Of a DNA stretch of 64,000 nucleotides, positions 46,599-49,405 are shown piece by piece; the stretch's first letter is position 1, and every line of letters starts with the position of its first letter. A model generated the notes under the pieces. That model had not been told where the DNA came from. It made no database searches and saw only the letters and a list, made by a program, of their open reading frames with translations. The position numbers were made by a program, and so were the translations under genes. The DNA is taken from the NCBI GenBank assembly GCA_913045625.1, contig CAJWPE010000001.1, forward strand, positions 1-64,000, read 5' to 3'. This DNA comes from an uncultured Chloroflexota bacterium (lineage in GTDB: Bacteria > Chloroflexota > Dehalococcoidia > Lucifugimonadales > UBA826).

Positions 46599-48101
46599 CT
46601 ATTCCACTATTGGTTGAGCAATTATCCACAAGCTTATCGCAGTATAAAAAACCATAAGAAACAACATTGGGATTTGAGTTTTAATAACTAATTTATTAGA
46701 TGAAATATCTCTACTTGCTATTTTATGTGATACATAAACGGAAATAATGTGCCCAACCACTAACGAAACTACTGAAAGAATCCATACAAATCTAGCGTTA
46801 ATTATAGAAAAATTAGGCACGTAATTTTTTGTTCCAAATAAATTCCAGTCAAACCCAAATGGATCTGAAATTAACGGAATAATATTTTGACCAGTAATTA
46901 TTAAAAAGGAAAAATAGTGCGAAAGATTATATGCCAATGCTATGGGAACTAAAGAGAAAACAAAAGTTTTTGAAACCTGTTCAGTAGAAATTAAACCTTT
47001 TGAAATTTTGGATGTCCACGAACAAATTGATACATAAATGACTGAAAAAAATAATGGGAAAAAAACACTTCCCAATGAGGTTATAACAGATGAATTATTT
47101 AGATTTAATGGATTTACCAGTGGCCAAATTATATTTTGAATTTCTATCCAAACAGGAGTCTCAGCAAAACCATCAAAAGTTACTGTGGCAAGAGCGGTAA
47201 TATGAAAAAACATTACCGAAGTCTTTATTTTCTCTCCTGAAGTCAGGCCCACAAAGAAAAATCTAATATTCAGTTTTCTATATTTTGGTTCAGATTTTTC
47301 CCAACATTCTAAACATCCAATACATCTTGATTGTATTAAACAATCAGAAGAACATTTAGAACAATTTGAAATTTCAGATTCTATTTCAGTGGGTGAAAAT
47401 CTAGAAAAAAGCCCAAACAATATATGAAAAGGATCAGCATTATTTAACCAAACGTGTTTTCCAAATAAAAGCATTCCAGTAAAAGTGTAAAAAGTATAAA
47501 TTATGAGAAATATTGACAAGTGAAATGGCTGAGAAGCACCAGAATAAACATTTTCTATCCAGGCAAATATTAAAAACAAAATTAATGCCGGCCAAGATTC
47601 AATTTTTTGGTTCCATTTCAAGATAGGGTCTGATGATTTTCGTCGATCTAAAAGTGTGAATAATATCAACCAAGGATTTGTAAAAAGCCAAATATTTCCC
47701 AATAATGCTACTAAATAGCCAATACCTACCCACCAAATAATCCAAATAAAAGTTGGGGAGAAATTATCTAAAGGTTCTTGTGTACCTACAAATCCTGTGA
47801 ATATACATAAGATAAGAAGTGCAACAGAAATAACCCCGAATAAAAAACTGAAGAACTTTAAAACTATTTTCACATATCTGAATGAAAATAAATTTAATGT
47901 CCAATATTTTTGATCATTTAAAGATTGTGAAAAAAACCACCCAATAATTAAAAAAGATACGGCAACTGTCGCAGCTGCACCTATCATAAAATAAGATAGA
48001 GGAAGAGGAAGGTCATATCTTTCTCCAAATCCATGAGCACTAACTGGATATGAGGAAATAATTAAAATAAATATAACAAATAACGCTGAAATAAATTTCA
48101 A
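46599..48101 (-). CDS. Polytopic membrane protein, 'fenitrothion hydrolase'-like, N-terminal His after signal cleavage
   Basis: A 500-aa protein with a signal peptide whose predicted site (YPVSA/HGF) leaves His23 as the mature N-terminus, then GERYDLPLPLSYF and roughly 11 transmembrane helices. The HGxGxxxDLPLPL start is what I recall from actinobacterial proteins annotated as fenitrothion hydrolase; true activity of that label is doubtful. A loop at about residues 245-268 has six Cys (CSKCSSDC...CIGCLEC), a possible metal or Fe-S site. A free N-terminal His is a common copper ligand. It is downstream of the cupredoxin-like lipoprotein and the 180-aa protein in one operon. Copper handling is inferred, not shown. 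Confidence 0.72.
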   Translation of the reverse strand: MKFISALFVIFILIISSYPVSAHGFGERYDLPLPLSYFMIGAAATVAVSFLIIGWFFSQSLNDQKYWTLNLFSFRYVKIVLKFFSFLFGVISVALLILCIFTGFVGTQEPLDNFSPTFIWIIWWVGIGYLVALLGNIWLFTNPWLILFTLLDRRKSSDPILKWNQKIESWPALILFLIFAWIENVYSGASQPFHLSIFLIIYTFYTFTGMLLFGKHVWLNNADPFHILFGLFSRFSPTEIESEISNCSKCSSDCLIQSRCIGCLECWEKSEPKYRKLNIRFFFVGLTSGEKIKTSVMFFHITALATVTFDGFAETPVWIEIQNIIWPLVNPLNLNNSSVITSLGSVFFPLFFSVIYVSICSWTSKISKGLISTEQVSKTFVFSLVPIALAYNLSHYFSFLIITGQNIIPLISDPFGFDWNLFGTKNYVPNFSIINARFVWILSVVSLVVGHIISVYVSHKIASRDISSNKLVIKTQIPMLFLMVFYTAISLWIIAQPIVE

Positions 48102-48110
48102 ACTATTTTC

Positions 48111-48866
48111 CTAAGGATAAACCTCAATTCTAAACAATTTCGTCTCATCACTATGATTTTCAGAAGTTTTTGAATCATTAGGAGGAGATCCGCTAGTTAT
48201 TCTAGATTTCCTATTTAATTCATTCTGCCATGTGATTTCCATTCCTGGAGTAGCGTAAACAACGTTTGGATCAAAAACTAAAGTTTGAGTAGTTTCGTTT
48301 TCAGTAATTAAAATTGTAATTTCATCAATATATTGATTCTTATCAGAAACTTCTATCATAGCTACAGTCTGATGTTCCATATGATCATGATACATAATCG
48401 ACTTTTCTAAAAAATCATCAGGAATTTTATATGAATAAGAATCACCTGGTAATAGTGTATTTGATTCGAATAATTCCCCATGACCAGAGTGACCAGAGTG
48501 ACCAGAGTGACCAGAGTGACCAGAGTGGGCACTAGTATGAGCAGTCACGTTATATCGTCCAGTAGCAATTGCTTTAAATTCCATAATGGAAGCTTGATTA
48601 GGTTTTAGCAGTTTTTTAATGTCATAACCATGTAGGTGTATTTCAATTTCTTCATTAGAATTGAACAATAACTTTACCTGATCGTATTGTTTTAAAGTAA
48701 TCACGTTGATTCCGTTAGAAATTTTGCCATTTTCGATTTGTATAGTAGTTTCTTTTATGTTTGGAATTTCAGATTTACTTTGATTTGTATCAGTATCTGT
48801 ACCCGAACAAGCTGCTACAAAAATCAAAGTAAATATAGAAACAATATAATTTAACGGTTGATTCAT
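48111..48866 (-). CDS. Cupredoxin-like lipoprotein with (His-Ser-Gly)n repeat
   Basis: A 251-aa exported protein. Lipobox VAAC places the lipid anchor at Cys20. Residues 35-105 and 140-250 are beta-rich. The segment MYHDHMEHQTVAMIEV (about 158-172) resembles a cupredoxin copper-site region, and IHLHGYD lies at about 76-82. Between them a (His-Ser-Gly) run at residues 114-129 gives six His at three-residue spacing, a soft metal-binding tether. It overlaps the next gene upstream by 4 bases. This makes it a candidate copper-binding or -donating lipoprotein; the classical Cys-His-Met ligand order is not fully clear. Confidence 0.72.
   Translation of the reverse strand: MNQPLNYIVSIFTLIFVAACSGTDTDTNQSKSEIPNIKETTIQIENGKISNGINVITLKQYDQVKLLFNSNEEIEIHLHGYDIKKLLKPNQASIMEFKAIATGRYNVTAHTSAHSGHSGHSGHSGHSGHGELFESNTLLPGDSYSYKIPDDFLEKSIMYHDHMEHQTVAMIEVSDKNQYIDEITILITENETTQTLVFDPNVVYATPGMEITWQNELNRKSRITSGSPPNDSKTSENHSDETKLFRIEVYP
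48482..48526 (+). repeat. Five perfect tandem 9-bp repeats coding for (His-Ser-Gly)5
   Basis: The unit GACCAGAGT occurs five times without a mismatch (48482-48526). On the minus strand it encodes the His-Ser-Gly run of the cupredoxin-like lipoprotein. Identity at DNA level, including wobble bases, points to recent slippage expansion. The 9-bp unit keeps the frame whatever the copy number. Confidence 0.97.
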
Positions 48867-49405
48867 TTATTCTTCCTAAAAATAATGTTAAAAATATATC
48901 TTAAAATTATAACTCCTAAAAATGCCAAAAGTCCCAATGTTAAAAAAGAATTCAATGGGTTAGGAGATACTACATCTATCTCAAATACAGTTGAAAAATT
49001 ATGTGAATCTAATTGATTTTCATTTACTTCTACATCAATTAATAAAAACCACTTTCCCTCCGAATCTAAAGAAATGTCTACCTCATAATATTCTGGATCA
49101 AACAAAGTATTATTCATTTCAGATTTGAAAATTTGAGCAGAGTCCATATTTTCGATTGAAGGTGATAAATAAACTTTCAAATTTTGGAATTTTTCTTGTG
49201 ATTCTTGTTTTCTTACATATAAAGCAAAATGATTTAAACCTTTAACAGGTTGATCAGGAATAGAACCAATGCCTATTACAAAATTACCAACTTGATTTTC
49301 TTGGTAATTTTTTACTGACCCATTTGCTTCTATAGTAGTGGATAAGGAAAACAATAAAAATCCACAAATGAAAATAAAAAAAATTATTGTTTTTGAAGTT
49401 ATCAA
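48863..49405 (-). CDS. Exported beta-sandwich-like protein with C-terminal membrane anchor
   Basis: A 180-aa protein with an N-terminal signal (residues 1-28), a beta-rich extracellular part (VGNFVIGIGSIPDQPVKGLNHFALYVRK...) and one C-terminal helix (about 152-174) followed by a basic tail. The shape is like YtkA/CopC-type domains, but I find no diagnostic residues. The TTG start lies 3 bases after the trpB stop, without a clear ribosome binding site, so translation may be coupled to trpB. It overlaps the lipoprotein gene by 4 bases (ATGA) and heads the three-gene envelope set. Confidence 0.65.
   Translation of the reverse strand: MITSKTIIFFIFICGFLLFSLSTTIEANGSVKNYQENQVGNFVIGIGSIPDQPVKGLNHFALYVRKQESQEKFQNLKVYLSPSIENMDSAQIFKSEMNNTLFDPEYYEVDISLDSEGKWFLLIDVEVNENQLDSHNFSTVFEIDVVSPNPLNSFLTLGLLAFLGVIILRYIFNIIFRKNK

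Follow-up and report, generated by a model that had tools for sequence, protein, structure and literature searches.

What kind of system is encoded by three adjacent genes, here called A, B, and C, that directly follow trpB in a 64,000-nucleotide stretch of DNA (the window) from an ocean SAR202 bacterium of the Chloroflexota? Inspection of the open reading frames showed that all three exist just as they had been described from the sequence and are read from the minus strand, A first, then B and C. A starts 3 nt past the trpB stop codon, A and B overlap by 4 nt, and a gap of 9 nt separates B from C (Table 1). The closest relatives of the C protein in the window are found in SAR202 cluster bacteria. 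The original prediction had left two options for this locus, a copper capture and transfer system or a copper-dependent membrane enzyme.

Table 1. Coordinates of the three genes and of the protein features discussed in the text (positions in the window).
Feature	Positions	Strand	Description
Gene A	48863..49405	-	YtkA-like beta-sandwich protein of 180 aa; exported, with a C-terminal anchor
Gene B	48111..48866	-	Lipoprotein of 251 aa; two cupredoxin-like domains, no Cys ligand
B HLHGY motif	48624..48638	-	His77 and His79; nearly invariant, part of the conserved HLHGYD
B His-Ser-Gly run	48480..48527	-	Residues 114-129; relatives His-rich here, sequence and length variable
B YHDHMEH motif	48372..48392	-	Weak PF07732 match at residues 137-168
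Gene C	46599..48101	-	500 aa polytopic membrane protein, unnamed family
C His23	48033..48035	-	Predicted first mature residue; invariant
C six-Cys loop	47304..47363	-	Residues 247-266; predicted cytoplasmic, not conserved
C Asp310	47172..47174	-	Outer end of helix 6; invariant
C His395	46917..46919	-	Outer half of helix 9; invariant
C His451	46749..46751	-	Middle of helix 10, mid-membrane; invariant where present
C His459	46725..46727	-	Inner end of helix 10; invariant where present

The A protein starts with a predicted signal peptide and ends in a transmembrane anchor, in keeping with its earlier description as exported and anchored. Taken alone, the A sequence from the window matched no Pfam family. 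YtkA (PF13115) was matched by 9 of 21 A relatives, with a best value of 4e-8, and a profile of the relatives searched against all PDB sequences gave a single significant match, 9ll2, a "Copper resistance protein" (E 3.1e-7). This match persisted (1.2e-4) when the most divergent members were left out and the alignment shrank to 16 rows. The YtkA domain occurs in CtaK, a protein implicated in assembling the CuA site in caa3 oxidase, and is also the terminal domain of the copper importer YcnJ (PMC13344008). A is similar to CtaK (PMC13344008) in that it is an anchored, YtkA-like protein in a genome with a caa3-type oxidase and CuA, but it is held by a C-terminal helix instead of being a lipoprotein, and its gene is linked to B and C rather than to oxidase genes.

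The B protein was expected to be a lipoprotein with a His-Ser-Gly run, and both a lipobox (AAC20) and the run, HSGHSGHSGHSGHSGHG, were found. B matched PF07731 above the cut-off and PF13473 weakly, and 23 of 34 B relatives matched Cupredoxin_1. In the PDB, the B profile picked up CuA domains, NirK, and laccases, and the structural model of B (pLDDT 83) had fold matches to CuA, NirK, and multicopper oxidase, so that the cupredoxin fold is supported by sequence and structure comparison alike. Conservation of the HLHGY motif makes His77 and His79 probable copper ligands. Multicopper oxidases carry HxHxxxH copper motifs, which the YHDHMEH motif of B resembles. The Cys ligand of a type 1 blue copper or CuA site is absent from B, in which the lipobox Cys20 is the sole Cys, and B is therefore excluded as an electron carrier of the blue-copper or CuA type. 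The natural reading of this sequence is that B would bind copper through His residues or serve as a copper chaperone.

C is the least familiar of the three proteins. It has a predicted signal peptide ending in VSA directly before HGFGERYDLPLP, with the cleavage site deduced from sequence. The AlphaFold model (pLDDT 88, pTM 0.87) has about 11 helices after the signal peptide, the number originally proposed, which we read as 10 membrane-spanning helices and one outer half-helix. Structures were predicted as monomers, with a second prediction made without three plasmid-derived rows, and the sidedness of residues was assigned by charge distribution. Sequence searches with C matched no Pfam, NCBIfam, or PDB family, and Foldseek comparison of the model to the PDB gave no match at E<=0.001; the top Foldseek matches, GltPh among them, had TM-scores near 0.1 and were set aside. 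C thus had no match to known transporters by sequence or by fold. An identity with CopD was rejected because PF05425 was matched neither by C nor anywhere else in the window genome. A literature search on SAR202 and copper returned nothing concerning the A-B-C locus, and the C family is apparently unnamed, and undescribed in the papers searched.

Relatives of C were found in Chloroflexota, Pseudomonadota, mycobacteria, and haloarchaea. With distant polyferredoxin-type matches counted, 57 of 201 genomes have them in Chloroflexota, and 34 of 249 in the phylum to which a Burkholderiales relative belongs. Plasmid-borne relatives occur in mycobacteria, rhizobia, Sulfitobacter, Variovorax, and haloarchaea. 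One Muproteobacteria genome with six C matches has a 934-aa ORF (L042, 3428-6229) in which C is fused to a 402-aa C-terminal region without a Pfam match.

A functional name had been attached to such proteins. The original prediction mentioned similar polytopic proteins under the label fenitrothion hydrolase, which we take to be a database label, and by that label C would be an organophosphate hydrolase. The label could not be confirmed on annotated plasmids, where the C relatives are called hypothetical protein, and the literature searched held no functional account linking it to the C family. A hydrolase would leave the copper neighbors and the partners A and B unexplained, and C occurs in open-ocean bacteria and haloarchaea; we consider this function extremely improbable.

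Is the association of the three genes itself conserved? The upstream sequence reached 600 nt or more in 94 distinct C loci; B lies beside C on the same strand in 41 of them, A in 29, and both in 26, and these adjacency counts place the linkage of A, B, and C beyond chance. The complete trio is the rule in the SAR202 family of the window, and B-C pairs reach Burkholderiales, Variovorax, and mycobacteria. The expectation that the genes would be kept together elsewhere thus holds strictly in SAR202 and more widely for B and C. In rhizobia and other Pseudomonadota, many loci contain C with neither A nor B nor an obvious copper neighbor.

In other lineages, copper genes are found as neighbors of C. 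A CopC-CopD-cytochrome c fusion is encoded immediately upstream of C in other Chloroflexota, and in Sulfitobacter a divergent gene for the chaperone PCuAC adjoins C. CopC/CopD and PCuAC are in this way immediate neighbors of C elsewhere, but they were matched by none of A, B, and C in our searches. Two plasmids of mycobacteria carry a B-C pair together with copper monooxygenase genes and sigC; in M. tuberculosis, SigC controls how copper is acquired (PMC7924339). When the Pfam families of 101 operon neighbors were tallied, most were one-off housekeeping families, and the copper- or thiol-type families that recurred were YtkA, Cupredoxin_1, DsbD_TM, and CopC. Two further kinds of neighbor were seen. 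In Thioglobus and some SAR202 genomes, a gene for a large Sortilin-Vps10/BNR beta-propeller protein of about 900-1230 aa immediately precedes a C paralogue (L043 3-2678, L050 2580-5915, L063 2200-5892). In several SAR202 genomes, a recurrent protein of 130-160 aa without a Pfam match is encoded just 5' of A (L111 4407-4889, with relatives in L033, L034, L035, L037, L038, L039, and L055).

The profile of A, the folds of B, and the neighbors of C point to copper independently of one another. This agreement bears out the proposal of a copper role for the locus as a whole, which on these sequence comparisons we regard as highly probable.

The residues conserved in C suggest where copper could be bound. 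Alignments showed that His23 is kept in all relatives that cover the position, from Chloroflexota to haloarchaea, so the post-signal His singled out by the original prediction as a key residue proved to be invariant. Five residues, His23, Asp310, His395, His451, and His459, are invariant among the bacterial and archaeal proteins. The charge distribution predicts His23, Asp310, and His395 to be on or near the outer face of the membrane and His459 to be near the inner face, and this outer-to-inner series could be a copper path. CopC likewise employs an N-terminal His. As for a histidine brace, which calls for His as the first mature residue, the position is invariant in C, and cleavage before it is predicted. 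The C paralogues at L050 5980-7428 and L052 5977-7419 have the conserved His without an ordinary signal peptide before it.

An N-terminal His together with invariant Asp and His residues in a membrane protein recalls the copper monooxygenases, next to whose genes C is found in mycobacteria. C might accordingly be itself a copper-dependent membrane enzyme, with His23 in a histidine-brace-like site that A and B load with copper. C has no Pfam match to monooxygenase subunits, however, an hmmscan of 44 C members having found no PmoA, PmoB, or PmoC family, and its loci show no regular association with an electron donor or substrate gene. Since His451 and His459 lie toward the inner side, a path fits better than a single outer active site. 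Of the two options first proposed for the locus, capture and transfer has therefore held up as the best reading; the enzyme is the weaker option, and we judge it unlikely. The invariant His residues of helices 9 and 10 could also ligate heme b, which would make C a quinone-linked redox protein. C matched no cytochrome b family, and a heme function would leave the N-terminal His, A, and B without a role, so we hold this to be very improbable.

A second feature of C that had been drawn into the copper machinery is its loop of six Cys residues. All six exist (residues 247, 250, 254, 260, 263, and 266), but the loop failed the test of conservation, with three Cys left in two congeneric species and none in many relatives. 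It is also predicted to lie on the cytoplasmic side, opposite His23, and we rejected it as a copper site on both counts. A different origin is suggested by the broad C profile, which also finds distant polyferredoxins with Fer4_5 and NapH similarity (1e-30 to 1e-57). These relatives matched NapH and NosR models, and CcoG was not among the matches. In the aligned helices, C and the polyferredoxins share Gly106, Trp120, Trp138, Pro143, Pro386, Pro414, and mostly His395, and the six Cys of C align to 6 of the 8 ferredoxin Cys columns, with the two CP cysteines absent. C is thus distantly related to polyferredoxins of the NapH/NosR/CcoG type, and its loop sits on their ferredoxin columns, but it lacks their FCRYxCPxG motif, the two CP cysteines, and often all of the Cys residues. 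Where a polyferredoxin has eight Cys and CPxG, members of the C family have six, three, or no Cys, and the motif reads GKxxW. Conversely, His23, Asp310, His451, and His459 of C are not conserved in the polyferredoxins. A tree built without the Cys loop set C apart from the polyferredoxins (SH-aLRT 98) and implied several changes in Cys number within C. From the sequences, the six-Cys loop is probably the remnant of a ferredoxin domain. Some of the polyferredoxin relatives (L173-L187, for example L182 and L176) have long N-terminal regions that are His-rich, with HDHG-type repeats, or contain cytochrome c repeats.

By analogy with CcoG, a membrane cupric reductase that contains two iron-sulfur clusters (PMC7558416), C might be a cupric reductase or electron-transfer protein whose six-Cys loop is a cytoplasmic iron-sulfur site, and the distant kinship with 8-Cys polyferredoxins of NapH similarity, together with the placement of the six Cys on the same columns, would fit such a function. 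The His residues persist, however, in a family in which the loop is gone from many members and down to three Cys in two congeners. Because the loop is missing or reduced in these members, electron transfer through it cannot be the common function of the C family, and we think a reductase quite unlikely.

The window genome encodes a caa3 oxidase operon whose subunit II contains the CuA motif CAEYCGDSHANM, and family searches also found SCO and Caa3_CtaG. COX1 is present in 55 of 57 C-bearing Chloroflexota versus 112 of 144 without C (Fisher p 7e-4, a value that ignores kinship), COX1 being common in Chloroflexota even without C. Matches to CopD or to a copper P-type ATPase were absent from the genus, as represented by three genomes with a completeness of 78, 94.6, and 97%, and the copper P-type ATPase model was matched in all 14 control genomes. 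The SAR202 lineages of this genus may be without any P1B-type ATPases. With no copper exporter found, a hand-over of copper at the membrane or on its periplasmic side becomes attractive, with copper import as a possible alternative.

We therefore favor, with a probability of roughly 0.6, the reading of A-B-C as an envelope system that captures copper and transfers it for the assembly of a cuproenzyme. The C genes that have no A, B, or copper neighbor and the lack of a transporter match for C weigh against it. The protein families, residue conservation, gene linkage, copper neighbors, and genome content were observed, whereas we infer copper binding itself, the sites involved, the way in which copper flows, and the enzyme supplied. 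We would expect the parts to act as follows. The His-rich B would take up copper outside the cytoplasmic membrane. C would be the membrane core, in which the free N-terminal His23, His395, and Asp310, probably with Asp413, would form an outward-facing copper site, and along helix 10 His451, halfway through the membrane, and His459, at the inner face, would continue the series and may move the ion inward. The YtkA/CtaK-like anchored domain of A would pass copper to cuproenzyme assembly, most likely that of the caa3 oxidase by way of SCO.

The known system with the most similar parts is YcnJ (CopC-CopD-YtkA) with YcnI of Bacillus subtilis, which shares with the proposed A-B-C system an outer copper site with an essential His, a polytopic part, and a YtkA domain (PMC13344008). 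Essential His residues of YcnJ are found both in the outer copper site and in the polytopic membrane part, and the protein supports heme-copper oxidases (PMC13344008). The differences are that C is not CopD, having no PF05425 match, that B is cupredoxin-like and not CopC, and that in the window the parts are separate genes. Copper uptake and delivery are as such a kind of system already known; it is the C family that appears to be new. More tentatively, C could have arisen from a polyferredoxin scaffold as a membrane copper transporter or receptor of a new class, in which the iron-sulfur domain was lost and the mature N-terminal His and the Asp/His path were gained, and which in the genus of the window would supply respiratory copper without CopD or a copper P-type ATPase.

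Copper import and delivery are poorly characterized in bacteria, with few proven membrane proteins (CcoA, CopD/YcnJ), and the A-B-C locus matters for this reason. C is widespread in ocean, soil, and haloarchaeal genomes, has no family model or structural relative, and contains sharply conserved candidate copper ligands, and it provides an exact list of residues and hosts for testing. The locus offers an idea of how copper could reach the respiratory oxidase in a lineage that lacks those known copper transporters for which we searched.
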